Part shown: positions 3,501 through 57,528 of the stretch, one piece after another
Position numbering within the stretch: the first letter of the stretch is position 1
Layout of the letters: each line of letters begins with the position of its first letter
Assembly (NCBI GenBank): GCA_025267735.1
Contig: CM046294.1
Location: 32,457,222 to 32,521,221, forward strand
Direction of reading: 5' to 3'
DNA from: Mactra quadrangularis
Taxonomy: Eukaryota; Mollusca; Bivalvia; Venerida; Mactridae
Length of the DNA stretch: 64,000 bases
The notes under the pieces: generated by a model
Database searches by the model: none
Told to the model about the DNA's origin: nothing
Seen by the model: the letters and a program-made list of their open reading frames with translations, nothing else
Program-made: the position numbers and the translations under genes

Positions 3501-6500
3501 GATCCCACGCGCCCGTACGGTGCCCTCACGGCTATTTTTATGTTTATGGGACTGTAGCTTTAAGGGAAGCCCTAGCTAGTGCATTACCCCTGATACCATT
3601 GATTTTATCTTAAATTCTTATTTCTTTTTTGTGTAAGTAGGTTACCAGGTACAAAGTCCTTAGTAAACTGGCCACAAAATAGCCCTGAAAAAATTTACAC
3701 CAACACAATAGTATTGTAAATAAGTTGCATGATACAGCATTGAATGCTTCTACTATCTACAATCTCCTTCCTCAGCAGTGTTCTCAGTAAGATTTTGTTG
3801 AATAGGCTCAAATAGAAAAGTAATAGGCTTTCAAAGGGGGTCCAAGACAATTTCTTTTCTTCTTTTCTATATTTTACCAATTTTAACAGGCCTATTAGTC
3901 TCTCTAACCGGCCGTTTAGGTCGGCAGCTGGTTCCTAATGAGAACACTGCCTCAGGCAGGAACCATATTGCCGTTCTCTCTCCTACTTTCAGTATCATGT
4001 AGGGATGTTGCCAGCTATAGACAATGTCTGCAATAAGTACTTTTTAAAAGCTTTTAACCAGAGTTCTAAGTCAGAAAAAAACTGAGGTCATATGATTGCA
4101 GTCTTATGTCTGAAAAAAATGTTTAAAAGCATGGTAAAGCCTTGTAAATTAAGTAAATCACAAACATGTGATTATAAGATGAGTTAATAGAATGATTTAC
4201 TAGTTACTTAACATATATAATTACATCAAATAACTCCAATAGTTTTGTTGTATTACAGAGAGCCAGTATGCAGTTACCAGTACGACAGATGCCAGGATAT
4301 ATGCCTGGTGTTATGCCTCATGCTAGACAATTCTCATCACCAAACTCTGCCTTTAGTCCTGTACCAGGTAATCATCTATAACCTTTTAGTTATTACCTCA
4401 TCTTGTGTTTGAAATGTATACATGGCATCATACATGACCCCTTCCTAGGGGTAACAAGTTCAACATAGTGTTGTATAAGGAAATACTAAAAATCATATTC
4501 TCTCTAAAACCACAAGGTCTAAAGTTTCCACATTTGGCTTGAGGCATTACCTCAAGGTCCACAACAAAGAGTATCCAAATTATATCCCCCAGGGTTAACA
4601 AGTTGTCCTAGTTAGTTTGCTCTTATCTGAATATGAAAGTGTTAGAAAAATCTTGTCATAAACCCTCTGGATCGGGTTCTTTGGTAATAGGTCTAGGCTC
4701 CTCAAGACCTTCTTGTTTGAAGACATCTTTGATTAAATGATTTGACTCATGTCACATGTTTGTTAGGTTTCTGTAACTTGTGTAAAGGAATCTGGTAAAA
4801 TTACAAGTTGTATGGTTGCCATAGTCCACCAGTTTTACATTCAAGCTACTAAAAGTATTGAACCATCATTTTGCAAAGTAGTTATGAAACTTGTTGATGT
4901 AAAGAAGCTTTTTAGGAAAAAACATCCTTTGAATCCCAAAGTACAGTCTACTTTTATTTAAAAAAAAGTAAGAAAATGCTTAAAGTGGATTGAAACTTTG
5001 GTGAGGCGATAAGAATGATGGTTATCTGAACTGGCCTGACATAATTGTTGAAAAGAGGATTAAAACAAAGAGAAGTCTGATTCTGGTTATAAAGATTGCG
5101 AAGATGATAGTGTTCATTATTTCCTTGTTGTTAAACATAAAACCATACCTTGAGTAATTATTGACCTAATTTGATAATGTAGAGTGATTTAGAAAAAGAA
5201 ATTAGTTTTAAATAATGTACAGGTTGCTGGATTAACTATTTGTGAGATATTTCAATATTTTCATATTAATTGTAGGTTTTTATCAAGGAAATGCTAATCA
5301 GGTTCCTCCCAGAGGTTATCAAGGTCACCCCCAGCAACGACCTTACAATGGAGGTCAAGGTCAGATATATCAGCAATATAACAGGGGAGGTAACCAACGA
5401 CATCCAGTACAGAATGCTAATCAACCATTTGTGAATAATATGTCTGTGTTGCCTCCAAATTCTCAAACTCAAGCTGTCATTCAGAGAACAGAAGACAAAA
5501 TACCAACGAATCAGATTGTAGATAACAAATCAACCAATCAGATGACAGGAGACAGATCATCAACCAATAATAAACCAAGTAAAGATGTCAAATCTCAACC
5601 TACTTGTGTGGTTTCACCTTTTGTGCCAATGCAGGTACTAACCATTGTAATAAATTTTAGTGAATTATGGCTTTTTTGCATTTTGCTTGATTCCTTTTAC
5701 TTATTTTTTGCTTCATTTTTGTGAAGAGTATTAATTCAAGCTTTACTATTTACTTAAGCTTCAGTTTAAGTTAAGCCGCCCGGCTAGCTCAGTTGGTAGC
5801 ATGCAAGTCTACTGATCGAGGGGTCGTGGGTTCGATTCTCGGGCGGGGCATACTTTCGTTGAGTTAGGTCGTGAAATTATTTCTACGGCCATTCTCCCCC
5901 CAACCAATGATTTTTTTATGCCCGAAAGAATTTCGGGCATATTATGTTATACCCCCTGGCGTCCGACTGTCCATTTGTAAGCAATTTGGTTTCTGGAGCA
6001 TAACTTAAGTTCCATTTTGCCCACAATATTCAAACTTCATATGATGATTGTCCATATCGGGTAGAAGACCCCTATTGATTTTGGGGTCACAAGGTCAAAG
6101 TCACTATTACCTTAAAACTGAAAACAGTTTCCGGAGCATAACTTAACTTCCATTTGGTCCACAATATTCAAACTTCATACAATGATTGTCCATATCGGGT
6201 AGAAGACCCCCTATTGATTTTGGGGTCACAAGGTTAAAGGTCAAGGTCACTATTACCTTAAAACTGAAAACAGTCTCTGGAGCGTAACTTAAGTTTTATT
6301 TGGCCCACAGTATTCAAACTTCATGGGAGGATTGTCCATGGTTTCTTTTTTCTCTACTTTGTTTTCCACAATTATTCATAATATGATATTCATATGAAAT
6401 ATTCTCATGTCTTACAAATGCTTAATCTTAACTAAAAACAACAACACTTTTGGGCATATAATGCTCCACCTAGCGGTGCTCTTGTTAATTATGTAGAGCA

Positions 6501-13870: not shown

Positions 13871-14235
13871 ATTATACTTCCTTAAATATTACTTCAGGTG
13901 TGAAAATGAGTTTTTGGCAATGGACTGGTGTATTTATCTTAAGGGCATTATTATCTCTAATTAATTGAGTTTTGAAAAAAATCTCTCTAGGTCTTACAGA
14001 CTAGCAATAAGGTCAGCTCTTTCTCGATCTCAAAAGATAGCATTTCACTTAACAATTATAACATTGAAAGTTCTGTTACTAGTCATGAGTGCAAGGAGTG
14101 AAAAAAATAATCAAAATTGAACAGCTCAACCTAAAGCTGACTTACTCAGACTGTTATCTACACAACATGTCAAAAGGTTGAGATAAATTGAGCCTTTTTA
14201 TACACCTGTTTGAAAAAAAGTCATATATTATGGCG

Positions 14236-15530
14236 CTAGTCTTCTGTATGTCTGTCCGTCATATCTTGTGCATGCTGGTTCTCTGTCTGTAATATCTTGT
14301 GCACGATGGTCCTTTGTATGTCTGTCCTTAATATCTTGTGTACGCTGATCCTCTGTCCGTCTGTCCATAATATCTTGTGCACGATGGTCCTCTGTCTGTA
14401 ATATCTTGTGAATGATGGTCCTCTGTCTGTAATATCTTGTGCATGATGGTCCTCTGTCTGTAATATCTTGCGCATGATGGTCCTCTGCGTGTCTGTAATA
14501 TCTTGTGCATGATGGACCTCTGTATGTCTGTAATATCTTGTGCACGCTGGTTCTCTGTATGTCTGTAATATCTTGTGCACGCTGGTCCTCTGTATGTCTG
14601 TCCATAATATCTTGTGCACGCTGGTCCTCTGTATGTCTGTAATATCTTGTGCATGCTGGTCCTCTGTATGTCTGTAATATCTTGTGCATGCTGGTCCTCT
14701 GTATGTCTGTAATATCTTGTGCATGATGGTCCTCTGTGTGTCTGTCCATAATATCTTGTGCACAATGGTCCTCTGTATGTCTGTCCATAATATCTTGTGC
14801 ATGCTGGTCCTCTGTATGTCTGTAATATCTTGTGCATGATGGTCCTCTGTGTGTCTGTCCATAATATCTTGTGCACAATGGTCCTCTGTATGTCTGTCCA
14901 TAATATCTTGTGCACGCTGGTCCTCTGTATGTCTGTAATATCTTGTGCATGATGGTCCTCTGTATGTCTGTCCATAATATCTTGTGCACAATGGTCCTCT
15001 GTATGTCTGTCCATAATATCTTGTGCATGCTGGTCCTCTGTATGTCTGTAATATCTTGTGCATGATGGTCCTCTGTGTGTCTGTCCATAATATCTTGTGC
15101 ACAATGGTCCTCTGTATGTCTGTCCATAATATCTTGTGCATGCTGGTCCTCTGTATGTCTGTCCATAATATCTTGTGCACAATGGTCCTCTGTATGTCTG
15201 TCCATAATATCTTGTGCACAATGGTCCTCTGTATGTCTGTCCATAATATCTTGTGCACGATGGTCCTTTGTGTGTCTGTCCATAATATCTTGTGCACAAT
15301 GGTCCTCTGTATGTCTGTAATATCTTGTGCACGATGGTCCTCTGTGTGTTTGTCCATAATACCTTGTGCACGATGGTCCTCTGTGTGTTTGTCCATAATA
15401 CCTTGTGCACGATGGTCCTCAGTGTGTCTGTCCATAATATCTTGTGCACGATGGTCCTCTGTGTGTCTGTCCATAATATCTTGTGCACGATGGTCCTCTG
15501 TGTGTCTGTAATATCTTGCGCATGCAACTC
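14236..15530. repeat. Minisatellite with 31-, 35- and 39-bp units
   Basis: About 35 tandem units built on TAATATCTTGTGCA-NNNTGGTCCTCTGT. Unit length changes in 4-bp steps: CTCTGTCTGTAATATC (31), plus TATG (35), plus TCCA/CCAT as well (39). The unit has no stop codon in several frames, so it yields overlapping ORFs of 351-459 codons on the minus strand and others on the plus strand; these are repeat artefacts. It lies between the two convergent genes. Confidence 0.9.
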
Positions 15531-16775
15531 CTCCTTTATTACTTGACCTATTTTCTTGAAGCTCACTAATGATAGATATTGATGTATAGTTGAGCATAAA
15601 AGGGAAATAATTCAAATTTCATCATTAACTTTTGGATTATTTCCCTTTATATATACAGTTGTATTTGTTAGCAAATTTTAGAGTAGACAACTACTTCATT
15701 ACTTGCCTTATATTCTTGTAACTCTTGTTTAGAGTTGACTCATCTTTGGGCATATGTTGCCCCATTTAGTGGATCTGACAAACAAAAAAGACAAAAAGTA
15801 CACATTTGTTTTAGAACTTTTATTATTTACAGATAAAATGTAACATATGACTTTGCTCTACATGTTTATAGAACAGTCATTTATATGAGCAGTACATAAG
15901 GCTTTTAACTGAATAAGCAAATGATCAGTATTGGTCTTGATCAAACAGAACGCTAGAAAATGGCTTAGTCAAACAATTATTCGTTAATAGCTCAACCAGC
16001 AAAATGTTCAAAACTGACTTGACAAAGCACATTTTCAAAATAGGCTGGACCCTACAAGTCTCGGCAAACTAGGCCAACATTGCTAACAGCAAGTTTAGGA
16101 TTCCAACTTTCATGCTTAACATATTCATATTTCATGAATTACTGATGTACTTGTTCAATAAAATAACTTTAAACAATGACTGTTATCGAACAAATATGAG
16201 TTCAGTCAAACAGTGTACATGTAGTTTGACAATAGAAGTTACACCAGGTTGTTTGTTGGAGGGTCTAAATTTCATGCGGAGGGTTAAATAAGAGATGAAT
16301 CTGTTTAAATGCCAGGTCTGTCAAACTAGAAACAGGGTCAGAAAGAAAAAATACCAACATTCTAAAATAAAAAAATCATGCAAGGGTGAAAGTTCAAATT
16401 TATCAAAATCCTAAGACTCCTATATTTCATTATTTACCACTTTCACATTGGAAAAGAACCCTTATTCTGATAAAAAAAAACCCTAAACTCCAGGATCAGT
16501 CCTGAAAACTGTCACCCATATTTTACAAACTTTATATTGGTTGTAACCAAGTTCCAGTATCAGCACAACAAAACCTGATCTAAAAACATGCCTGGTCATA
16601 CACACTGATCCTCTGAACAGGGGTTCATGTAGAGCAAATGTCAGGTGATCTAGCCACTTGCTGATTACCCTAGTAGGGATGCCTACAGCAGATGAAAAAT
16701 AAAATCAGGTTTTGATTGATGAAAACCGATTGTCCGGTGTCCAGTCTTGACCAGCAGACATGTAATCAGGTATAT
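15531..16775. other. Spacer downstream of LSG1
   Basis: The right flank of the minisatellite. It carries a small inverted repeat (AAAGGGAAATAATTCAAA near 15598 with its partner near 15632-15650) and a block at 15746-15775 (GGGCATATGTTGCCCCATTT) similar to the 3' part of the element at 5928-6487. The part next to 16775 should include the LSG1 3' UTR (minus strand). No exon supported. Confidence 0.4.
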
Positions 16776-41410: not shown

Positions 41411-41917
41411 TGTCAACCTATATTAAATTTTTAAAAACAATGACTGATAAAGAGCATGTAATTTTTATTTTTTCTATTTTTTGTCAGATTTTGATAACAA
41501 ATGGCGAGTCAAAAATATTCATTCCTTTGTAAAAAATGACATTTTTAAACAACAACTTCCCCTTCCGACAAATGGTTAAAAAAACCAAAGTGGACAGAAC
41601 ATAGCAGACAAAGACATCCGTTAGGTGTACGTGCAGAGATCTATAATTGGGATATCATAGTAATCACTGATAATTAGTGTAGGGAGTATAAACTAGGGCT
41701 GTCACAATAAACCGGTATACCGGTATATTGCGTTACGCAGCTGCGGCAATACGTACCGTGGTATGATTTTAACATACCGGTATTTTGCAATATTTTTTAT
41801 TTAAATTGGAAAATTCTTCCTTTGGCGATATAAAAGTAGCGAAACCTTAGTTTTTCCATTGTTCATTCCACCTTACATTAAATAACAAGTATTTATCTGA
41901 TTAGGGCGCGTCACAAT

Positions 41918-43436
41918 TCCGGTTCCGGTTTCATTGTGTGAAGACGTTGAAAATTCAGGAAAGAAAAATTATCCGTCTACATCGTGATTACAAATGGACA
42001 AAAGAGAATAATAGTTGTGAAATAGTGTTACAGAAGAGCCATCAATCATTTAAAACAGGATCTGTTTCATTTTCGATTGATTTAATTGCATTTATTTAAT
42101 CCCATCGTTTCGCCATTACTTACACTGTGGGTGGGGTAACGCAAAAAAAAAAAAATACAAGTTGTTCTCTGTTGGGTCTGGGTCTTACCCTAGTCCTATC
42201 TAGTAACTAATTCAGTTTACTATTATATTTATGTTTCTTTTAATAATTATGATGTCCTGAGAGAACAACGATGTAAAATTTACGTACACTTGGTAATCTG
42301 TACGGGTGGGGTACCGTGTTTTTCAATTTGGTCTAGTTATTTAGTTAGTTTCTGTACTTAAATTATTGTGTTGATTATCGTAGTATTACCAGTATTTCCA
42401 CCTCTAATCTTTAAATTCGAATTACATTGGAACTACGACAGTCTGTGAATATCGTAAGATAAGACATATTTTTCTATTTATGTAAAGTTGAATACTAATT
42501 GGTAGTTGCGGGGACTGCCCTGCCACCTAACCACCATCATTTTTTTATTTATTTTTTTTTTGATGTTTCATCATTTTTAGAACATAACAGACTGTGAAGT
42601 TGTAGGGACTGCCCTGCCGCCTAACCATCACTAATATTTTGATGTGTGGTACTTAAAAAATTTTCCAACGAGGGAAGTCGTAGGGACTGCCCTACCTCCT
42701 TGAAATTAACTTTTACTATTTATCTTTATTTGTTTATTATTATTCGTGTATTGATCCTTCAGTGATACTTATAAATCTATCCAACGTAGGAAGTCGAAGG
42801 GACTGCCCTGCCTCCTCACAAACAATTTTTTACTATCTATCAGTAGTGTTCCTTATTATTCATATATTGATCTAAAAGTGGTTGTAGTAAGGACTGCCTT
42901 ACCACCTCACGTTTTCCATATACTTATACTCGAAAAAAATAGGAATCAAGTACCCTCTGGCTTGCATTGTTTGTCCAATGTCTTTTGATCTTGTTTTTCT
43001 GTCTCGGCATTAAGCAAAAATATCCTTCTAGTTTATAAAAGTATTTATGTAACTTGTTCTGTCTTATATGATCAGTATTGGATGTGGTTGGGACTGCCCT
43101 GCCTTCCATCTCAGTCTGATTAGCTTCTTATATCTTAATTAATCTTAAGTCTCATAATTTGTTCTCCCAACCCTCAGGTCTGCCCTAAATTTCTTTTTTT
43201 CTAACTTATTAAATTGATTCATAAATAAATACATCTGTATCATAAGTATAGCTAAACTGTTCAGATTATAATACATACATAGTATTATATTTTATTCAAG
43301 AATTGATATTCACCAAGCAATATAAGTATTTCCAGTAAAATTATTAATATCAGCCGATAGTAGGGACTGCCCTGTCTCACAAATATAAATTTATGTAACT
43401 AAACTCAGTTTATAGATATTACATTCAAACTAATTC
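41918..43436 (+). other. Leader (5' UTR) of the CR1/L2-like element
   Basis: 1.5 kb without a supported ORF. Starts TCCGGTTCCGGTTTCATTG. Carries stem-loops 1-7. Must contain the internal promoter, but no specific promoter motif is recognised. Confidence 0.6.
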
Positions 43437-44364
43437 ATGTCAAGTCAGGTATTAAAAAAAGCAAGGAAGTTCCTAGAGAGACCTGCCCCTTCCTGGCCAA
43501 CCTATAATATCATAAACATCTACTCTGATAGCAAAGGGAATTATCTGAAACCTGATTCCTCTGATTGCAATACAATTATCAACTTTTACACAAAGAGTGG
43601 TGCTAGAACAGAGGAGGGTCTGAATTTCTACAAAAGGCATTGTACTCATCCAACAGAACCAGATACTTTGAACCTACTATGGTATGGTACATGTGATATC
43701 ACCAGAAAAGTAGGCAATTTCATCTATCCTAGGTACAGTAGCACTGAGGAATTAACTAATTACATTGGTGATCTCTTCAACCAATTATCACTCTTTGCAA
43801 CAGAGAAAAAACAAAACATAGGTTTAATTGAAATTCCCCCAATCTTTACTAAAGTTTGGAATAAGAACAGAAACTATCCTCATTGGCAGGAAGTGGATGA
43901 TACAGTCATTAACGAACAGGTTCAACTTATCAATAACCTCATTCAAGACTTCAACAGTAAACACAATTTTACATCTCCAAAATTGTACCAGGACTTTGTC
44001 AAAACTAGAAGGGATAGAAGGAAGGGTAGATCAGCACCCCGTACTAGATACACTTTAGACCCCAGCCTATCCGTTGATGGTATTCACCCAGAAGGAGTAA
44101 CAGCTAAGAAGTGGCTGAAAAAAATAAGTGAGAGTAAAAATACACAAAGGCCATCTTAGATTGTACAATAATTTAATATAAAACACTATTTGATACATTT
44201 TTAAGCATACAACCATAGTTGTTTTTTTTTTACAGATGTGTAGGGACTGCCCTGCCATCAACTAACAGTAAATTATAGAATATAGTATTGTTGCTTAGCC
44301 CACCGGCTTTTCAATACGAATTATTGTTTCTTAACATGTACTGATGTTGTGAGGACTGCCTTAC
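42508..44364 (+). repeat. Nine dispersed stem-loops with invariant ACTG loop
   Basis: Each is a 6-bp stem closing a 4-nt ACTG loop: 42508-42523, 42602-42617, 42680-42695, 42796-42811, 42887-42902, 43087-43102, 43360-43375, 44240-44255 and 44349-44364. Arms run from GTAGGG/CCCTAC to GTAAGG/CCTTAC, GCGGGG/CCCTGC and GTGAGG/CCTTAC, so both sides change together or by G-U wobble. Copies 4 and 6 each have one mismatch. All lie outside the ORFs. A 3' flank of CCxCCTCAC type is often present. A decayed tenth copy may lie near 43171-43187. Confidence 0.88.
43437..44159 (+). CDS. Retrotransposon SGNH/GDSL-type esterase ORF
   Basis: 240 codons starting ATG. SGNH hydrolase blocks are visible: block I IYSDSKGNY with the nucleophile Ser32, block III WYGTCDIT (G84-x-C-D87, with Asp where the family usually has Asn), and block V VDGIHPEG with Asp213 and His216. 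Esterase domains are known in ORF1 proteins of CR1-like LINEs, where they may act on lipids or membranes; here the domain is a free-standing ORF upstream of a PHD ORF. A basic stretch (KTRRDRRKGRSAPRTR, residues 188-203) could bind nucleic acid. The start context (T at -3) is weak. It is followed by a 278-bp spacer with two stem-loops. Confidence 0.82.
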   Translation: MSSQVLKKARKFLERPAPSWPTYNIINIYSDSKGNYLKPDSSDCNTIINFYTKSGARTEEGLNFYKRHCTHPTEPDTLNLLWYGTCDITRKVGNFIYPRYSSTEELTNYIGDLFNQLSLFATEKKQNIGLIEIPPIFTKVWNKNRNYPHWQEVDDTVINEQVQLINNLIQDFNSKHNFTSPKLYQDFVKTRRDRRKGRSAPRTRYTLDPSLSVDGIHPEGVTAKKWLKKISESKNTQRPS

Positions 44365-44437
44365 CTTCATTACACATTTTGTAACACAGTATATATATCT
44401 ACTTCCCTTTCACTTTAATATTATAAGAACGGACATA

Positions 44438-45535
44438 ATGGCAACCAGTACCCCAAAAATAAATAGACCCTTGGTCAATGTTGCACGTAGGTTAGAACCG
44501 GCTTTAAAAAGAAACCTTCAAACAAGAAGCCCAGATCAAGGGGACCTATGTACTAACTGCAAGAATAATGTCGATCTACTTAATAAAATCCAATGTAGTG
44601 GCTGTAAACTGTATTTTTGCAAAAATTGTACTGAATTATCTTCTAGAACTCTTGAATTGGTGGAAAGTGGTGAACTCGATGAATTTAAATGGAGATGTAA
44701 ATGTTGTAAAGCAACTGCCCCGTCTTTGGAATACATCAGCTCTACCCTACAGGACCTCAGTGAAAAACAAGAGGCAAGATTATCTGCCCTTGAATCTAGA
44801 ATGGATTCCTTAGAAATTGACACTAAATGCCATATAAAGTCTGAAATGAATAATTTTAAGAAGGAATATGATGAGAAAATTGAAAATAGAATGCTTCAAC
44901 TTATCAGGGAAGAGACTAAAGAATTAGAAGATAGAAGGAAAAGAGAAATGAATTTGATCTTTTTCAATGTTAAAGAAGGTAATAGTTCCATTGGGTTAGA
45001 TAACAAAGAACATGATATAATGATGTTAAAAAAATTAGCAGACTCAATTGGGGTTCAAGATCTTCAAATAAACACCTGCATTAGATTCGGGAGAAAAACA
45101 AAAAACATGGCCAAACCTAGAATTCTTAAAGCAGTCTTGTCTAATATCTCGCACAAAAAACAAATACTTAATAATGCTAAAAAAATAAGGTTATTAGGAG
45201 ATCCTGATCTAAAAGTAATAACTATCTCTAAGGATTTGACCAACGTACAAAGATTGGAAAGAAGAGGCAATCTAAGGAGAAGCAATGACAAACCATCTAG
45301 TGAAAGCGATACCACCATAGTAAGCTTAAATACAAGTGACAAAAAGATAGCTGGCAGCGAAATGACTACCAAACAAAGTATCAATTCTTCACTCAATGAG
45401 TATAGATTTAGTCAAGAATTTTTAGATGAAACTGTACCTATGGACACCACCTTACCTGGAGGTTTCAATATCAATAAGACTATAATCAATGATGTAAGTG
45501 AACCTAGTTCACCAGAAATTAATCGTCTACAATAG
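44438..45535 (+). CDS. Retrotransposon ORF1: PHD-like finger, coiled coil, RRM-like region
   Basis: 365 codons with a good ATG context (A at -3, G at +4). Residues 38-90 hold a PHD-like zinc finger: CTNC, CSGC, FCKNC, W85-x-C87 and CC, with Cys where PHD fingers usually have His. A long charged helix (about 98-175) is a likely coiled coil for trimerisation. RKREMNLIFFNVKEG begins an RRM-like fold typical of LINE ORF1 nucleic-acid chaperones, with CIRFGRKTKN and KPRILKAVLS further on. An S/T-rich tail ends at TAG (45533-45535). The frame continues open directly after this stop into ORF2. Confidence 0.85.
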   Translation: MATSTPKINRPLVNVARRLEPALKRNLQTRSPDQGDLCTNCKNNVDLLNKIQCSGCKLYFCKNCTELSSRTLELVESGELDEFKWRCKCCKATAPSLEYISSTLQDLSEKQEARLSALESRMDSLEIDTKCHIKSEMNNFKKEYDEKIENRMLQLIREETKELEDRRKREMNLIFFNVKEGNSSIGLDNKEHDIMMLKKLADSIGVQDLQINTCIRFGRKTKNMAKPRILKAVLSNISHKKQILNNAKKIRLLGDPDLKVITISKDLTNVQRLERRGNLRRSNDKPSSESDTTIVSLNTSDKKIAGSEMTTKQSINSSLNEYRFSQEFLDETVPMDTTLPGGFNINKTIINDVSEPSSPEINRLQ

Positions 45536-48517
45536 GACAAGGATTTTAGCTTGAATAGAAACTCAGGCAATCACTCTAAAGTGAACATTTTTTATAATAA
45601 TTCATCACCTTTTAACTGTGAGAGTAACTCTGTTTTTAATGATAAATATTGTTTTAATATTGTAAATAACCTTAGTGTTCTGTATACTAATGCAGACACA
45701 TTGACTAAAGTGAAAAAAACTGAACTGTATAGTCTTATCAATGATAAGAGTCCTGACGTTATTGCTATAACTGAAGTATTCCCAAAAAATTCAACTTTTG
45801 GTAATATTAAGGAAGTATACAATATTGAAAATTATGACATGTTTATTTCTGACTTGACAAGAGGCAGAGGAGTCTGTATTTTTGTAAAACAATCCTTTAA
45901 AGCATCTAACATAGATATCAGTCATGATTATGAAGAATTCACCGCTTGTGAAGTTTGCTTACAAAAAAAAGACAAATTGTTAATTCTGTGTATTTACAAA
46001 AGTCCTAACTGTGATATTGTGAATGTTCAAAAGCTAATTGAATTGTTAACTATTTTCTATGTTAAAAATTACTCTCACTTTCTAGTGCTTGGTGACTTTA
46101 ATCTACCTAGTATAGATTGGACTAATGAATGTTCATATAACAGCTCTAATCATCAAAGTAACGTGTTTCTAGATGGAATAAAAGACCTGTTTCTCTATCA
46201 ACATGTCAAGAAACCAACAAGATTTAGAAATAACCAAACTCCTTCAATGTTAGATCTAATCTTTACAAATGAAGAAAACATGATAGACGAAATTGATTAT
46301 TTGCCCAGCTTAGACAGCAGTGATCATGTTGTACTTTTCTTTAAATTTTCCTGTTATATACCAGCAAGTAGAAATAAACAAAAAAAATTCAACTACTTCA
46401 AAGGCAACTATGATGGCATGAGGGAAGAACTTGAGAAGGTCAACTGGGAAGAGATAATTGTGGGTGACATTGAGAATATGTGGGAAAGGTTCAATGAAAT
46501 AATTATCAAGTGTGTAGAACTTTATGTACCTATCAGTAAGGACCCTACTGCTAATTTCAAGAACCCCATAATAGATCATCAAGCTTCTCTCGCAATTAAG
46601 AAAAAGCGACAAAAATGGACCAAATATCTCAACAACAAAAACCATAAAACCTTTGAGGAATACAAAGCAGCAAGGAACAAGGTCAATTATGAACTCAGAA
46701 GATCTAAGTACAAATATGAACAAGATATAGCCGCTAATATTAAAAGTAATAACAAAAAATTCTGGAAATACATCAGAAAAAACACCAAAACAACAGCTTC
46801 TATTTGTAACCTTGTTAAAAAAGATGGAAACACAACCATTGATGATAAAGAAATTGCTGACACACTCAATGGTCACTTTACATCTGTCTTCACTGAAGAA
46901 GATACTAGTAATATACCTGTTTTCAACCCTGTGTCACAAAATCTGGAGATAATAAGATCTATAACTATTACTGAAGACACTATAGAAAAAGTGATTAATG
47001 AACTGAACCCGTCCAAGGCCCAAGGTCCTGACAACATACACCCAAAAATTTTGATAGAATGTTCCAATCAGTTGTTAAAACCCTTAAAAATACTATTTAA
47101 CAATTCTCTTCATAATGGGAAACTTTCTAAAAAGTGGAAAGAGGCCAATGTAACTGCTATTTTCAAAGCCGGAAATAAAAAACTACCTGAAAATTACAGA
47201 CCAATATCAATTACACCAATATGCTGTAGAGTCTTAGAAAAAATCATCAGAAATGCCATTGTTGAACATTTAGAGACTAACAACATCATAATTGATGAAC
47301 AACATGGGTTTAGAAAAGGAAGGTCGTGTAACACTCAATTGCTGGAAATAGTAGAAGATTGGTCAAGGGAAATCGATGAAGGTCATAGTATTGATGTCAT
47401 TTATTTAGATTTCAAAGCGGCTTTTGATAAAGTACCACATCAAAGACTATTATCAAAAATTTGGGGTTATGGAATACAGGGAGATATATATAAATGGATA
47501 GAAAATTTTTTGGAAAATAGGGTACAAAGAGTGTCAATTAACGGCACAGTATCATCTTGGTCTAAAGTCACTAGTGGTGTGCCCCAAGGAAGTGTTCTGG
47601 GTCCTATTCTATTCTCAATATACATAAATGATCTTCCTAACTCTTTAACTTGTTCTACCAGACTGTTTGCTGATGACACGAAACTTTATAGGTGTATAAA
47701 AAGCGACAATGATTCACAAATGTTGCAAGATGATGTATTTGAAGCATGCAATTGGGCCAATAAATGGCAAATGATATTCAATGTAAAAAAATGCAAAGTA
47801 ATGCATATAGGTAAAGGTGAATATAATGAATATTTTATGAAAAATCAATATGATGTAGTTGAAAAAATCCAGATGGTAGAGGAAGAAAAAGACCTGGGAG
47901 TGATCTTTGACAACAAACTGACCTTCAGAAACCATATTCATAGTAAGGTCAAATTGGCCAATAGAAACATAGGAATCATTACAAAAAATTTTACTTATTT
48001 ATCTAAAGACATGTTTTTAAGTCTTTACAAGACCCTTATTCGTCCCCATTTAGAATATGCTGCTTCAGTCTGGTCACCTAGGCTAAAAAAGGACAAAAGA
48101 GAAATCGAGCAAGTGCAAAGAAGAGCAACCAGATTAATTAAAGGGTTAGAAGGTCTTAATTACAGTGAAAGGTTAAAAAAATTAGGATTACCTAGTTTGG
48201 AGTACAGACGCTCTAGGGCAGACCTTATCCAAGTTTACCGTATTAAAAATGGTCATGATAAATTAAATCACAACTATTTCTTTCCTGAACAAGAAAATGA
48301 TCCCATGCATAACATAAGAGGAAATTCTCATAAAATATTTAAGAATAGATCCAAAACTGATTTTAGATCCAATGTATTCAGCCAGAGGGTAGTTAATAAC
48401 TGGAACTCACTATCTAATGAGATCGTTACAGCCCCCTCAATTAATGCATTTAAAAATAGACTGAACAAAAAATGGTCTGGAGTCATTGATAAATTTCACC
48501 CCACCTGTCTTAGTTAA
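45536..48517 (+). CDS. Retrotransposon ORF2: APE endonuclease and reverse transcriptase
   Basis: Open for 993 codons from just after the ORF1 TAG, in the same frame, to TAA at 48515-48517. The first in-frame ATG is at 45839, inside the endonuclease, so normal AUG initiation cannot give a whole protein. Endonuclease motifs: NAD, ITE, IYKSPN, LGDFNLP, LDLIFTN and SSDHVV. RT motifs: YRPISITP, FRKGRSCNTQ, VIYLDFKAAFDKVPH, SGVPQGSVLGP and RLFADDTKLY, so the catalytic Asp residues are present. A C-terminal region with PHLEYAASVWSP and RATRLI follows. Function: target-primed reverse transcription. It looks intact. Confidence 0.9.
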   Translation, partial: DKDFSLNRNSGNHSKVNIFYNNSSPFNCESNSVFNDKYCFNIVNNLSVLYTNADTLTKVKKTELYSLINDKSPDVIAITEVFPKNSTFGNIKEVYNIENYDMFISDLTRGRGVCIFVKQSFKASNIDISHDYEEFTACEVCLQKKDKLLILCIYKSPNCDIVNVQKLIELLTIFYVKNYSHFLVLGDFNLPSIDWTNECSYNSSNHQSNVFLDGIKDLFLYQHVKKPTRFRNNQTPSMLDLIFTNEENMIDEIDYLPSLDSSDHVVLFFKFSCYIPASRNKQKKFNYFKGNYDGMREELEKVNWEEIIVGDIENMWERFNEIIIKCVELYVPISKDPTANFKNPIIDHQASLAIKKKRQKWTKYLNNKNHKTFEEYKAARNKVNYELRRSKYKYEQDIAANIKSNNKKFWKYIRKNTKTTASICNLVKKDGNTTIDDKEIADTLNGHFTSVFTEEDTSNIPVFNPVSQNLEIIRSITITEDTIEKVINELNPSKAQGPDNIHPKILIECSNQLLKPLKILFNNSLHNGKLSKKWKEANVTAIFKAGNKKLPENYRPISITPICCRVLEKIIRNAIVEHLETNNIIIDEQHGFRKGRSCNTQLLEIVEDWSREIDEGHSIDVIYLDFKAAFDKVPHQRLLSKIWGYGIQGDIYKWIENFLENRVQRVSINGTVSSWSKVTSGVPQGSVLGPILFSIYINDLPNSLTCSTRLFADDTKLYRCIKSDNDSQMLQDDVFEACNWANKWQMIFNVKKCKVMHIGKGEYNEYFMKNQYDVVEKIQMVEEEKDLGVIFDNKLTFRNHIHSKVKLANRNIGIITKNFTYLSKDMFLSLYKTLIRPHLEYAASVWSPRLKKDKREIEQVQRRATRLIKGLEGLNYSERLKKLGLPSLEYRRSRADLIQVYRIKNGHDKLNHNYFFPEQENDPMHNIRGNSHKIFKNRSKTDFRSNVFSQRVVNNWNSLSNEIVTAPSINAFKNRLNKKWSGVIDKFHPTCLS

Positions 48518-49141
48518 TACAATAAAAAGTTATTGCATCTTGTTTGTACTTTACTTCAAAAAAAATTTTTTTTTTTTTAACAAATATCTTCTAAGTAGTA
48601 TAGTAAATTGTTTTGTTCAACAAATAACTTTTTTCATGCTTTTTACCTAAGTATAGTACATTGTTCTGGTAATTAAAAATTGGGTACAGCGTCACTCATT
48701 TCTCACGTTCTTGAAATAAGTTTAGTGCATTTTGGGTGAGGGACTAGTTATTCCTTACACACCTCAAGGGTTTTATTGGGCAATGGAAAATTCTGGATGG
48801 TTCATATTCATATCAATCGAACTTTCATTGTGGACATGGATTGTTACTTTAAAAAGTGCATAAGTGATGTTTTTACTGTAAATAGTTTTAAATCTCAGTG
48901 ACGGTCAACATTGTGTGACATTAATCAATGTGTTATGTTGCATAGGAGGAATATTCGTGTATTTAATGTGACTTATTCTGTGATGTGAAGTATCATATAT
49001 GTGAACCGGAAGTCAGTCAAGTTAAACTCATGTACATGAGAATCAGTAATACGTATAACTATGAAGAGCCTAACAAACCCTTGTGTTTATGTGTTTTACA
49101 CATCCGGCTCGGAACTTTTGTGAACTTTGTGAACTTTGTGA
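48518..49141 (+). other. 3' UTR and repeat tail of the CR1/L2-like element
   Basis: Includes AATAAAA just after the ORF2 stop, a T-run near 48566, and a 3' end of GAACTTT-TGTGAACTTTGTGA type with three 9-bp units. Such short repeated 3' ends are typical of CR1/L2-group LINEs. Confidence 0.7.
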
Positions 49142-49346
49142 ACAATCCTAAATGACCGTGAATACTTAGAGGCTAGATTCTATCAGTAACTGCATTTAAG
49201 ATGTGCAATGTTTCTGTTAAATACAGCAGAGGCACAACCAATCTAATAGCCCATAATATATTGTGGTAGGTATTGCGATACTACGCCAGCTTATTGCAAT
49301 ATATCGTGATACACTTTTGATGTATTGTGACAGCCCTAGTATAAAC

Positions 49347-50532
49347 TAGGGCTGTAACGATTCACCGATGCATCGTGAGATCGTATTCGCGACTGTCCGA
49401 TACGGGTGTATCGAATCGCGTCCTAAAAAATCGCGATTCAGAGGGCCTTTTAGTTCACAAGAAATCAGTTAAAACAAGATATACTATATTCATTTGTAAC
49501 TATAGCATTTAACTTGCAATTGCAATCTTCACTCAGTGTTCAATCTAGAGCGCGCCATTGGCATCTTATGAACGCAAATGGCGCAATATCAATCGTCTAT
49601 TGGGCCCGTCGGGCGCACTCGCCGAAAATATGGCTGTATCGCGAATTTGACAACTTTTCGTATATTCTATGCCATTTGTTTTCGTTACATCAATTTTGCT
49701 AAATTAAACGGGTACATCAGTCTTTGAATCTAGCTTCCGGGCCGAAGACCAAGTCCGTCTTGAACGCCGACGTTAAAAAGATACGGATCGCAAGACCGAA
49801 TGTCTGGTAGCAATTTCAATAGCAATATTACTAAAAATGGATAATTGAACATAAAAATTGCAGTTACAAGCAATTTATTATTTGGACGCTAAAAATCCAG
49901 CCGAGAGTCCGCAATACGCATTACATTTTTATCCACGCTTGTAACAATCATAGACAATATGACTTTTGTGTAAGGCGTCCTCTGAAAAATCAATAGTGCT
50001 ACATACGTATATGACGGCTCGATAAAATTGATTACGTAATCAAACGGTTGCAATTAACAAACACGTGCCAAACTTTGGTGAACAATGATTTAGGAAGATA
50101 ACACTTCTTTTATGTTTGCCGATAAGCTGATAATTGTTATTAATTATTAGCGTGTTGTGTGGCAGTTTAAATAGACATAATTAGTTGATTTTTTAATGAA
50201 CTTGTTAAATTCCACTAGAAACAAAAAAACTTTGTCATTATTTTAAAACAAATAAAGTTATTTGTATTTTATTATTCAATATGTGGTATTCCATTTTGTA
50301 CAAATAAAATTCCTTCAATCATTATTTCGTTATGTCATACATTTTCGCGACCCACGCTATCGTTTTTTTTTTAATTTTATGATTGTTTGATTAAAATATC
50401 ATGATTTGTGTATGCATTCATAATTTTATACCAAATTTACAATTAACATCGTATCGCAATTAATATCGTAATCGCGAGGCATATATCGCGAGACGTATCG
50501 TATCGCGACCTTGGCCACGATACACAGCCCTA
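49347..50532. mobile_element. Second hAT-like element (TAGGGCTGTAACGAT ends), copy 1 only
   Basis: Left end TAGGGCTGTAACGATTC and right end GGCCACGATACACAGCCCTA are partly inverted copies. It is flanked by GTATAAAC at 49339-49346 and 50533-50540. At 1186 bp no transposase is seen; inner blocks with repeated ATCG/CGATA motifs occur near both ends. It is absent from copy 2. Confidence 0.83.
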
Positions 50533-50629
50533 GTATAAACCATTATTCATCAAATATGTTAAATGGCAACAAAACATGCTATTTTTCATTTGTCTAATCA
50601 TTTCGTTATTTTCCATCGTGTATTTTGAT

Positions 50630-51759
50630 ACTACTTTTTCAGGTATTCCAAACCTTGAAAATATAACCTTGAGTTTTCTTATTATAGAAACACTCTTGCT
50701 ACTTGTCAACAAATCAACTTCAAAATATCTCCTGAAGTAGTCAACAGTAACTAAATAGTCGTCATTGTCCCATGTGAAAATATCAGTACCCAATACCTGC
50801 CATGGTCTGTCTGGAATTGGATGACTTTTCAATGGTTCTTTAGTGTTTGAGTTTCTATGTTTCAAACATATGTCACAATTCAAAACATAATTTGTAATGT
50901 CTGAACTCATTTTAGGCCAAAACATAATGTCTCGTGCTCGATTCAAACATTTTTCAGTACCCATATGACCAATATGGACAGCTTTAATCATTTCTTGTCT
51001 CATAGACATAGGAATTAGTAACTTTTGACCTCTGAAAATTAGATCATTTCCCACGGATATTTCATCTCTGTGGTTCCAGAATTCAATGATTCTTGTAGGA
51101 CAATCTGTTCTACACTCAGGCCAACCATTTAATATTACTTCAATAAGCAACTGACATTGTGTATCATTGCGAATTGCTTGTCTGACCTGGTCTAATGTTT
51201 GGTCACTTACAACTAAACTTGAAATCACAGTATTGATATGTATATCAATATCTTCTGATAATTCAGGATATGTGTCTGACATGTATTTTCTAGACAAAAG
51301 GTCTCCTACAGGGATATCTTTGCCTGGTATATGCACAATATTCAAATCATATTTCTGCAATTGTAACAACATTCTCTGTAACCTGGGACTTGCACTACAT
51401 AACGATTTCTTCCAAATCGAAGATATAGGCTTGTGATCAGATTCAACTGTTATAACTGAACTATTACCATAGATATACTGATGAAAACGCTTACATGAAA
51501 AAACTATACTTAACAATTCTTTTTCAATTTGGGCATAGTTCTTTTCTGTTTGGGTCAAAGATTTGGATGCATAAGCTACAGGTTTTCCATCCTGAAGTAA
51601 TACACTTCCAAGTCCATCTTTTGAAGCATCACATTGCATAGTAATAGGCTTCGTATGATCAAAGAATGCTAGAACAGGGGCAGATGACAAGATAATTTTG
51701 ACCTTCTGAAATGCCTGATCATGTTCATTTTTCCACTCAAATTCTACATCTTTTTTTAG
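50630..51759 (-). pseudogene. Gypsy RNase H and partial integrase
   Basis: Same frame as the gag-pol ORF beyond the stop. RNase H is seen in FDHTKPITMQCDASKDGLGS and SDHKPI. Integrase has the HHCC finger (HIGHMGTEKC and CDICLKH) and the first catalytic Asp (GTDIF). It stops matching after FGIPEKVVS, before the second catalytic Asp; the following residues to 50530 come from repeat copy 1. Confidence 0.83.
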
Positions 51760-53835
51760 TTATGAACGCATTGGAGCTGTAACCGTAGCTAACCTTGAAG
51801 AAAATTTTGTCATATATGTACACATTCCTAAGTAAGTTAAAAGTTCAGCCTTATTCTTAGGCGGTTGCATCTCAGTAATTGCGCTGATTTTTTGCGGATC
51901 TGGTTTCACACCATTTTCAGACAAAATATGACCAAAATAGGACACTTGTTTAACCCCGATAACACATTTTGCAGGATTAAATTTAACACCACAGGACTGA
52001 GCACGTTTCAGCACCTGTCTTAAGTTTGAGTCATGTTCGTCTTTTGTCTGTCCGTATACTAAAATATCGTCAACGATTCCAGTCACACCTGGTAATCTTT
52101 CAAAAATAGAATCTAGCTTTTGTTGAAATATGTCTTGTGAGCATATCAGTCCAAAAGGTAATCTTTTAAAACGATATCGACCAAACGGAGTATTAAATGT
52201 AGTGTAATAGGATGAAGTGTCATCTAACTTTACACTCCAATAACCACTTGCAGCATCTAGTACAGAGAAGTACTTAGCACCTGCTAGCTGAGAAGTAATT
52301 TCCTCAAATGTTCTCATAGGGTAATAGGGTCTATATAGGGCTTCATTTAGGGCCTTCGGGTCTAGACATACCCTAAGTTTCTTTGTTTTGGGTTTCTCTA
52401 CAATTACAAGATTGTTTACCCATTCAGTTGGACATGTAACTTTATCTATTATATCTAACTTTTCCATGTGGTCTAGTTCCTCCCTGAGTTTGTCTTTCAA
52501 TGCGACTGGCACTCGTCTAGGTGAGTTTACCACTGGTACACAATTAGGTTTCAGGTGTAATTTCACTTCACCTGACATTAAACCTGTGCCATTGAATACA
52601 TGTTCATATTCGTCTAATAATTTAGACTTATCTACAGTCTCAACAGGTATTTCCTGGCTATCTAATGAATTAGTCATCTTGATCAAATTTAGATCAACAG
52701 ATGTTTGGAGGGATAACAGGGGTGTTGATGTAGTTTCAACAACATAGAAAGTTATTGGCATATTAACTTTTCTATAGGTTACTTGTAACTTTACAGTACC
52801 TTTGACTTTAAGGCTATTTCCCGTATATGATGATAGCTTGACATTTGTGGGTTGTAAGGCGTACTTTATCCCAATTTGCTTGAATTTAGATTCCGGCAAA
52901 ATGTTGACCTGACTACCAGTATCAATTTTAAATGAGATTTTGGTATTATTTGGACCAATGTTTAAAGTGGCAAAAGCTTGATCATTGAGAGATAATGAAG
53001 TGATTACTGTACTTACATGAAACTCGGCTTCTGAACTATTAGAATTGTCATAGTCCTTATTAGCACCAATGTCATTCACTGTTTTAGTGCGACACATACT
53101 TTTAAAATGATTTAATTTTTCACACTTGTTACATTTCTTTCCTTTTGCATAGCAATCTCTGTCTAAATGTTTGTATCCACATTTACTACATTTCACATCA
53201 TTGTCCACAGTCTTGCTTTTTGTCATTGATGATTTCTTCTGATTGGTGAAGGTCGAAAGTCTTTTTGAATTTCTTTTCTTGATGGAATGTGCGACTTCAT
53301 CTCGTCCCATTTCCTTCAGTTGTACTCTTGAATATTCATAATTTTGACAAATTTGAACCGCTTTGTCTAAAGTTAAATCCTTCCCTTGATTTATCAACTT
53401 TTCTCGAATTTTATTTGAATTTGTCCCAAAGACTAATCTGTCACGTAACATCTCATCGGTATTCGGAAAATTACAGTCTTTTGCTTTTAATCTCAATCTC
53501 GTAACAAAAGAATCTACTGGTTCATCTTTCTGATATTCATTAAAGAATTGATAACTAGCAAAAATTGGATTTAAAGTCGGTCTCAAATAGTTTCTAAAAC
53601 GTGAATAAAATGTATCTAGTTTATTAGCCTCTTCGTCCGTAATGTCAGTCCATGAATGTCTTATATCCCTTCCTTTATCTCCTAACCACAAAAATAGATA
53701 TGAAACTTTTTCCTTTTCACTTTTGTTTGCCAAAGGTCCACTAAAAACTAAGTCCGAATGTCTTATAAATTTCTCAAATGTCTCAGGTAAGTTACTTTCT
53801 TCCCATCTCATTGACGGTGTAACAATCCCTTCCAT
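51760..53835 (-). pseudogene. Gypsy gag-protease-reverse transcriptase ORF (ends at a premature stop)
   Basis: 691 codons from ATG (complement of 53833-53835). The N-terminal half is a gag with two CCHC zinc knuckles (CSKCGYKHLDRDC and CNKCEKLNHFKSMC). A retropepsin active site with DTGS follows, then the RT with a VLDAASGYW block and the GIVDDILVYG catalytic box. The frame stops at about 51760, immediately before the region that normally links RT to RNase H. The same frame is open again beyond it, so a single nonsense change probably broke one gag-pol ORF. Confidence 0.85.
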
Positions 53836-53923
53836 TTTAAGTCAAAATTAATAACACTTTTAGATTATACTATCAATCCAAAAATATTTGTATTAATTTT
53901 AAAAAACAACACTTCTGACACCA

Positions 53924-56725: not shown

Positions 56726-57008
56726 AGTGTCAACCTATATTAAATTTTTAAAAACAATGACTGATAAAGAGCATGTAATTTTTATTTTTTCTATTTTTTT
56801 GTCAGATTTTGATAACAAATGGCGAGTCAAAAATATTCATTCCTTTGTAAAAAATGACATTTTTAAACAACAACTTCCCCTTCCGACAAATGGTGAAAAC
56901 CAAAGTGGACAGAACATAGCAGACAAAGACATCCGTTAGGTGTGCATGCAGAGATCTATAATTGGGATATCATAGTAATCACTGATAATTAGTGTAGGGA
57001 GTATAAAC

Positions 57009-57431
57009 TAGGGCTGTCACAATAAACCGGTATACCGGTATATTGCGTTACGCAGCTGCGGCAATACGTACCGTGGTACGATTTTAACATACCGGTATTT
57101 TGCAATATTTTTTATTTAAATTGGAAAATTCTTCCTTTGGCGATATAAAAGTAGCGAAACCTTAGTTTTTTCCATTGTTCATTCCACCTTACATTAAATA
57201 ACAAGAATTTATCTGATTAGGGCGCGTCACAATCCTAAATGACCGTGAATACTTAGAGGCTAGATTCTATCGGTAGCTGCATTAAGATGTGCAATGTTTC
57301 TGTTAAATACAGCAGAGGCACAACCAATCTAATAGCCCATAATATATTGTGGTAGGTATTGCGATACTACGCCAGCTTATTGCAATATATCGTGATACAC
57401 TTTTGAGTCTTGACGTATTGTGACAGCCCTA
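57009..57431. mobile_element. hAT-like element in copy 2, intact
   Basis: 423 bp, same element as 41694-49338 without interruption. GTATAAAC is at 57001-57008 and 57432-57439. No transposase. Confidence 0.88.
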
Positions 57432-57528
57432 GTATAAACCATTATTCATCAAATATGTTAAATGGCAACAAAACATGCTATTTTTCATTTGTCTAATCAT
57501 TTCGTTATTTTCCATCGTGTATTTTGAT

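Follow-up and report, generated by a model that had tools for sequence, protein, structure and literature searches.

In the bivalve Mactra quadrangularis, a long interspersed nuclear element (LINE) carries nine copies of a small hairpin, all of them outside its open reading frames (ORFs), and this hairpin is very probably a conserved motif of the sense-strand RNA. The element lies in a 64,000-nt stretch of contig CM046294.1 (GenBank assembly GCA_025267735.1, positions 32,457,222 to 32,521,221 of the forward strand), which is referred to below as the window and whose first letter is position 1. A preliminary description of the window had proposed that the structure is kept by selection on the sense RNA. 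This proposal is now supported by a diverged relative (L062) that has kept the hairpin, by compensated stems, and by matches to a structural model on the sense strand. The nine repeats are copies of one hairpin-forming sequence that recurs in the leader and spacer of related LINE families.

Nine hairpins in the leader and spacer of the element

All nine GGACTGCC hairpins with 6-bp stems that had been described are present, and all are on the plus strand. Their placement also agrees with the preliminary description: seven are in the leader, two are in the spacer between ORF0 and ORF1, and none falls in ORF0, ORF1, or ORF2.

42508..42523, plus strand: hairpin 1, GCGGGG-ACTG-CCCTGC, leader
42602..42617, plus strand: hairpin 2, GTAGGG-ACTG-CCCTGC, leader
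42680..42695, plus strand: hairpin 3, GTAGGG-ACTG-CCCTAC, leader; in a 112-bp tandem duplication shared with hairpin 4
42796..42811, plus strand: hairpin 4, GAAGGG-ACTG-CCCTGC, leader; one A/G mismatch
42887..42902, plus strand: hairpin 5, GTAAGG-ACTG-CCTTAC, leader; G-C changed to A-T
43087..43102, plus strand: hairpin 6, GTTGGG-ACTG-CCCTGC, leader; one T/T mismatch
43360..43375, plus strand: hairpin 7, GTAGGG-ACTG-CCCTGT, leader; 61 nt upstream of the ORF0 ATG
44235..44259, plus strand: hairpin 8, GATG-T-GTAGGG-ACTG-CCCTGC-CATC, spacer; core at 44240-44255
44349..44364, plus strand: hairpin 9, GTGAGG-ACTG-CCTTAC, spacer; core ends 73 nt before the ORF1 ATG

The ACTG loop is invariant (9/9), as had been claimed, and the flanking GG/CC is invariant too. 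With G-U allowed, the 6-bp stems are perfect in 7/9 copies, and those at 42796 and 43087 have one mismatch each. The 54 stem cells comprise 45 Watson-Crick pairs, 7 G-U pairs, no A-C, and 2 other mismatches, which bears out the reading of the G-U pairs as a sign of selection on the sense RNA. The claim of compensatory stems is moderately supported by the nine copies alone, and it is the relatives that strengthen it: pairs changed on both sides amount to 1/6 (reached by 219/500 shuffles), and the covariation score is 0.324 (reached by 5/500).

The motif is sharply delimited. Twelve matches with up to three mismatches occur in the 64-kb window versus 0.55 expected and a maximum of 3 in 100 shuffles; the three beyond the nine hairpins have no ACTG loop or no stem. 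When 41951-49100 was scanned with position weights, the outcome was all-or-none, with nine sites at 31.4 bits or more and a runner-up of 2.7, and therefore the element holds no half-decayed copies. The same scan found no hairpin in the 3′ untranslated region (UTR). A partner site was sought as the reverse complement of the 8-nt core, which does not occur elsewhere in the element. Mean pairwise identity among the nine copies is 0.77-1.0 within the hairpin, 0.31-0.45 over the adjoining ~40 nt (with 0.59 for the five bases that directly follow the stem on its 3′ side), and 0.25-0.32 farther out, where the base-composition background is 0.29. The surroundings are AT-rich. Noncoding sequence makes up 34% of the LINE, and all nine hairpins lie inside that share.

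The hairpins had been called scattered, in contrast to contiguous monomers, yet some copies arose by tandem duplication: hairpins 3 and 4 lie in the 112-bp duplication (78% identity), and hairpins 1 and 2 in one of 43 bp (84% identity). The spacing is also less irregular than it first appeared, since the 880-nt gap between hairpins 7 and 8 is reduced to 157 when ORF0 (723 nt) is subtracted. ORF0 may have been captured inside a formerly continuous leader array.

Related families share the shape with other stems

Relatives were taken from the window's own genome (979 Mb, 447 contigs), which contains 36 exact copies of GGGACTGCCCTGCC (five in the window's element; none of the reversed pattern) and at least 53 matches to ORF0, the window's own included. 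Thirty-six stretches were fetched around selected matches, the selection being made partly for the hairpin. Of the copies that are nearly identical, L055 and L058 retain the full nine hairpins, L057 has five and a damaged sixth, L056 has three, and the others, with cut or changed leaders, have one or two. Eight are found in L063, whose ORF0 pieces are 58-95% and ORF1 pieces 57-79% identical to those of the window. ACTG hairpins also occur in L065 (four), L064 and L082 (two each), and L078, L087, and L090 (one each).

The most informative relative is L062, in which ORF0 is 67% and ORF1 36% identical and which has two ACTG hairpins. When 41918-44437 was compared with it by blastn, ORF0 aligned (67%), and outside ORF0 only the hairpins did, over 23-36 nt at 81-100%. 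Thus, the relatives collected from the same genome, as the preliminary description had suggested, include one that keeps the hairpin though its remaining leader no longer aligns, and selection on the hairpin is the simplest reading of this comparison. The ORF1 products of L062, L065, L066, L070, and L080 are 34-42% identical to that of the window (E 3e-38 or better).

In sixteen sister loci (L066-L077, L079, L080, L085, and L086), whose ORF0 is about 38% identical (matches mostly 35-45%), no GGACTGCC hairpin was found above the scan cut-off. Their ORF0-ORF1 spacers carry one to three hairpins of the form RCAATG-ACAG-CATTGY or near it, mostly flanked by GATG or GTTG with a bulged T and then by CATC, CGTC, or CAAC on the other side; an ACGG loop occurs once, in L085. 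Leader matches, such as GCAATA-ACTG-TATTGC, are present in 12/16 of these loci as well. The common layout is an outer helix, usually a bulge of 1-2 nt starting with U, a 6-bp stem, and an AC-N-G tetraloop. The motif is wider than the ACTG hairpin of the preliminary description, with a loop AC[T/A/G]G on different stems.

A loop-blind census of hairpins was made in 23/36 loci, in intervals that reach 1,500 nt upstream and 560 nt downstream of ORF0 and in some loci extend into ORF1. ACAG (33 in 15 loci) and ACTG (25 in 9) were the top two of 256 tetraloops, followed by GCAT (23) and AGTT (18). Neither of the latter was retained as a separate class: the GCAT hairpins are mostly an alternative register of ACAG sites, and the AGTT hairpins are, in 15/16 loci, a competing fold overlapping the first spacer hairpin of sister families. 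A loop-blind descriptor search of 20 loci gave ACAG 18, ACTG 9, and GCAT 5 of 50 matches; on the reverse strand no loop exceeded 2 of 17. In the window, the same descriptor found hairpin 8 alone of the nine, one chance match in ORF2, and 12 matches elsewhere. As a separate observation, in 15 loci (L070, at oriented positions 4313-4330, and sister loci) the AGTT-loop hairpin competes for bases in the 5′ arm of the spacer's first hairpin, and the two are possibly a switch.

Covariation was assessed in three alignments. The core set comprises 43 cores (9 from the window and 34 from 14 loci, without near-identical copies), which give 21 distinct rows; 94.4% of its positions are paired, 5/6 pairs are changed on both sides, and its covariation score is 0.628 versus 0.346 in shuffled alignments (0/500), with slid versions at 0.273 or less. 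The one-nt-bulge set (21 rows, 18 distinct) is 92.2% paired, has 6/10 pairs changed on both sides, and scores 0.487 versus 0.274 shuffled (0/500). RNAalifold, which had been proposed as a check, recovered its fold unprompted, minus the outermost pair. The third alignment is a two-nt-bulge set. G-U cells outnumber A-C cells 20:3 in the one-nt-bulge set, 23:11 in the two-nt-bulge set, and 15:2 in the core set. Overall, the covariation score is above every shuffle in two of the three alignments, and the set richest in window copies is weaker.

The window and the 36 loci together (259,836 bases) were searched with a covariance model built on the one-nt form, which gave 126 matches at E up to 5. 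All of these are on the element's sense strand, except one that lies outside the element (window 2759, E 0.49); L087 and L090 yielded no ORF, and the hairpin itself served to define their sense strand. The 21 model-building rows match by construction. At least one match is present in 33/36 loci, in some to the core alone at E 4. The three others are L084 and the fragment L081, both without a match, and L083, with a single one of 24% GC at E 0.70. In six representatives (L055, L062, L065, L066, L070, and L074), the matches are confined to the leader or spacer and spare both ORF0 and as much of ORF1 as was fetched; from the end of the nearest match it is 38-241 nt to the ATG of ORF0 and 45-188 nt to that of ORF1.

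Several structural observations tell against the explanation preferred below. The core rows were selected for an AC-N-G loop and mostly for 5-6 paired positions, and they share ancestry; the shuffles keep that common ancestry, and therefore it is the few stem classes, and not the cell counts, that can be taken as independent. The number of pairs changed on both sides was reached by 10/500 shuffles of the core set and 73/500 of the one-nt-bulge set. The two-nt-bulge set (23 rows, 20 distinct), which includes eight of the nine window copies, is 85% paired, has 2 pairs changed on both sides (reached by 470/500 shuffles), scores 0.188 versus 0.159 shuffled (29/500), holds 11 A-C cells against its 23 G-U, and has one outer pair that fails in 13/20 rows. 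The outer helix is poor in the window copies, where only hairpin 8 has its strict form, and the L087 hairpin lacks a bulge and was included in neither bulge set. An outer helix with a 4/1 internal loop, tried on the nine window copies, was rejected (permutation 0.23; 19/27 pairs) and exchanged for the bulge form observed in the relatives. Finally, local folds of 44-nt pieces contain the complete 6-bp core in 32/43 cases, and a fold of 42400-43436 gives a stem probability of ~0.2 or less for hairpins 4 and 7.

The motif was also sought outside this genome. Viral contigs gave no relatives, and a search of plasmid DNA found nothing. Genome contigs yielded 10 distant loci, namely 6 in metagenome-assembled genomes (MAGs) at 26-36% identity and 4 bacterial. 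A search of the 6 MAG loci for three or more copies found no repeated hairpins. LINE-like reverse transcriptases lie in archaeal and bacterial MAG contigs (L014-L019), probably as eukaryotic contamination. Scanning 2.9 million viral contigs for the hairpin gave 13 stretches. In two related bacterial prophages, L003 (8657-8688) and L010 (1306-1337), an integrase-like gene of the type found in bacterial phages is followed by a GTAGGGACTGCCCTAC hairpin, which the first model scored at 32 bits in L003 and 30 bits in L010; in a scan of this size, these were judged coincidence and rejected as relatives.

The element, its proteins, and its surroundings

The limits of the element and its reading frames are as follows.

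41913..41917, plus strand: target-site duplication ACAAT, 5 bp, 5′ copy
41918..49141, plus strand: full-length LINE, 7,224 nt; both junctions given by the empty site in the 64-kb window
43437..44159, plus strand: ORF0, 723 nt, 240 aa, weakly SGNH/GDSL-esterase-like
44438..45535, plus strand: ORF1, 365 aa, with a modelled PHD-like zinc finger, coiled coil, and LINE-1 ORF1p-type RRM
45536..48517, plus strand: ORF2, endonuclease and reverse transcriptase, with no ATG before residue 102
49112..49141, plus strand: LINE 3′ tail of GAACTTTGT repeats
49142..49146, plus strand: target-site duplication ACAAT, 5 bp, 3′ copy
56966..57439, plus strand: empty site, a host copy without the LINE

The empty site matches the filled one on both sides (41651-41917 with 56966-57233, and 49142-49346 with 57229-57439), and its junctions therefore set the limits of the LINE at 41918-49141. 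Together with the ACAAT duplication and the GAACTTTGT tail, it identifies the element as a LINE, as do the ORF2 domains RVT_1 (1.2e-34) and Exo_endo_phos_2 (7.7e-13). The insertion is young because the filled and empty copies of the upstream host flank are 99% identical over 1.4 kb, and the sequence differences among the nine hairpins are thus most likely older than the insertion.

With respect to the proteins, ORF0 matches Lipase_GDSL weakly (E 0.0049, under the curated cut-off); in its family an SGNH/GDSL match is found in 2/8 members (best 1.4e-4), and no PDB esterase matched by sequence. Searched alone, ORF1 has no database relatives. Its structure model, built from 6 sequences in place of a poor single-sequence model, contains a PHD, a coiled coil, and a LINE-1-type RRM (mean predicted local distance difference test score 62). 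The modelled domains would place the element with the CR1/L2 group whose ORF1 combines PHD and LINE-1-type parts. They also resemble type IIC ORF1, which PMC4120745 gives as PHD plus transposase 22. The separate esterase-like ORF0 upstream distinguishes the present element from CR1/L2 elements with a PHD-bearing ORF1. ORF1 ends in a UAG at 45533-45535 (CAA UAG GAC) that is in frame with ORF2, and the first ATG of ORF2 is at residue 102, within the endonuclease region. This junction is kept in L088, and L089 has identical DNA there. From the sequence of the junction, ORF2 is likely made by stop-codon read-through. In L074 (4595-5501), the ORF1 start is fused straight to the reverse transcriptase, in an internally deleted copy.

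As for the surroundings, a host segment is doubled in the window at 99-100% identity (40501-41917/55820-57233 and 50524-50629/57423-57528), with one copy bearing the LINE and the other not; either the segment was duplicated recently or the assembly has retained both haplotypes. The LINE is nested in a small DNA transposon (41686-49346) whose inverted ends are TAGGGCTGTCACA-like and whose flanks are 8-bp GTATAAAC; we take it to be hAT-like, and a second element with similar ends adjoins it at about 49347-50540. Two open frames end to end on the minus strand (50530-53841) are gag-pol-like and, by eye, Ty3-like. The long ORFs that run in both directions at 14228-15618 are artefactual and come from a 39-bp tandem repeat.

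Possible roles and meaning of the hairpins

The two ideas of the preliminary description, binding sites for an element protein and modules of translation control, are still the leading candidates. The hairpin probably enables some protein, which may be encoded by the element, to recognise this RNA. Our tentative preference is that the hairpin is a docking site for the ORF1 protein, where the ribonucleoprotein is nucleated. The transcript would fold into the hairpins in the cell, and the protein reading the loop plus bulge would be ORF1p, with its modelled PHD, coiled coil, and LINE-1-type RRM. Binding ahead of the ORF0 and ORF1 starts, outside both frames, would nucleate the element's own particle, and it could couple packaging to translation of the same RNA.

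This choice of reader derives from one lineage, L083 and L084, in which ORF0 is 29% identical to that of the window and the hairpin is absent. There, a 65-nt spacer is followed by a different ORF, with a PHD-like finger ahead of an endonuclease-like region (L083, 1-1192, minus strand; L084, 4343-5500), and a 2A-like DIELNPGP motif lies near its start. Against the window's ORF1, only the PHD-like finger of this ORF matches (27.5% over 40 residues, E 0.05). In the hairpin-bearing families, a homologous ORF1 is present wherever ORF1 is readable. Docking of ORF1p is favoured because the hairpin-less lineage is without this ORF1 type, and the esterase-like ORF0 protein seems a poor candidate reader, since a relative of it persists there with no hairpin and a different second ORF; on these sequences ORF1p would be a fair one. 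All of this is a pointer only, because there is just one hairpin-less lineage.

Some points tell against docking. The negative lineage consists of two loci whose ORF0 is 98% identical, and its second ORF retains the weak match to the PHD part. LINE-1 ORF1p is known to bind RNA largely without sequence specificity, and specific reading of a hairpin would be new. In addition, hairpins that lie ahead of the ORF0 and ORF1 starts and are missing from the 3′ UTR of the window's element suit translation control equally well or better.

Translation control is indeed a close rival and a real possibility. The hairpins would be modules for cap-independent or reinitiating translation of ORF0 and ORF1; they stand ahead of both frames in 6/6 representatives, the window's leader contains 13 upstream ATGs that simple scanning would meet, and the spacer of the hairpin-less lineage measures 65 nt versus 140-346 nt in the six representatives. 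However, the distance from hairpin to ATG varies (38-241 nt for ORF0, 45-188 nt for ORF1), as does the copy number (leader, 1-7; spacer, 1-3), and the hairpin-less lineage still has a second ORF needing translation. By analogy with phage operator hairpins, which combine packaging and translation control in one device, docking and translation control could be a single device here as well. A more specific version, which we consider rather doubtful, is a family-specific identity code: each ORF1p would read its own hairpin, the AC-N-G loop and bulged U serving as frame and the stem as key, with joint control of translation and packaging before the ORF0 and ORF1 starts.

It is unlikely that the sites serve a host RNA-binding protein or nuclease (in export, stability, silencing, or processing) and are exploited or suffered by the element. 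A short UTR hairpin with a conserved loop and bulge is the usual form of such sites, and the motif persists across diverged families; yet in the window the covariance model has one match outside the element, at chance level, and the motif co-occurs with one ORF1 type. We regard as quite improbable an origin as DNA-level elements, that is, decayed tandem 5′ monomers with a palindromic promoter site, as in mouse LINE-1. Two hairpin pairs inside tandem duplications and the 78-116-nt spacing of hairpins 1-5 would agree with it, whereas a palindromic site would leave the loop free and here the loop is the most conserved part. Moreover, G-U exceeds A-C (20:3, 23:11, 15:2), some sites are in the spacer, 2.3 kb from the element's start, families differ in stem sequence yet preserve the pairing, and copies within an element share a single orientation. 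Selfish GC-rich micro-repeats spreading in the leader without function, comparable to mitochondrial GC clusters, are already disfavoured and highly improbable: a short repeated unit in AT-rich surroundings would suit them, but the window's element has no decayed copies (31.4 then 2.7 bits), stems are compensated across families, and placement is equal in families with unrelated stem sequences.

Among known systems, stringent-type LINEs (UnaL2, ZfL2-1, and ZfL2-2) have a 3′-terminal stem-loop bound by ORF2p. The present hairpin resembles it (compare PMC4176376) as a small hairpin of LINE RNA that would be found by an element protein. PMC5135761 is devoted to a conserved stem-loop that L1 and Alu have in their 3′ UTRs. 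Here, in contrast to the stringent 3′ stem-loop, there are several copies, in the leader and inter-ORF spacer, and the window's element has none in its 3′ UTR. Mouse LINE-1 5′ UTR monomers are likewise repeated leader units, and two of the hairpin pairs lie in tandem duplications, but the hairpins are non-contiguous, occur in the spacer too, and have their conservation confined to the hairpin. The MS2-type coat protein operator, which has an ANYA loop and a bulged A two pairs below it and couples packaging with translation, is similar as a tetraloop hairpin with a 5′-side bulge near a start region; it belongs to a phage system with another loop and bulge, and no relation is claimed. The iron-responsive element, with its six-base CAGUGN loop and bulged C, shares a 5′-side bulge under a short upper stem in a 5′ UTR; the present hairpins differ from it in their AC-N-G loop, 6-bp stem, and bulge of U or U plus one base.

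Rfam gave no matches in window 41500-50600 at E up to 1, and its 35 matches in L062, L066, L070, and L085 were all below the gathering score, with none on the hairpins. Among the matches listed in a literature search, there was no description of such hairpins in LINE leaders. Cis-acting hairpins of LINE RNA are known from 3′ ends; multiple copies in 5′ and inter-ORF positions, with stems particular to each family, are new as far as could be found.

How a LINE protein selects its own RNA among cellular mRNA is a long-standing question, which has been studied mostly at the 3′ end or as a cis-preference without a sequence signal. The 25-nt hairpin is a small, testable ligand with natural variants for recognition, translation, and packaging, and its RNA model can be searched for equal logic in other genomes. 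If the identity code were true, it would provide an RNA basis for LINE cis-preference.

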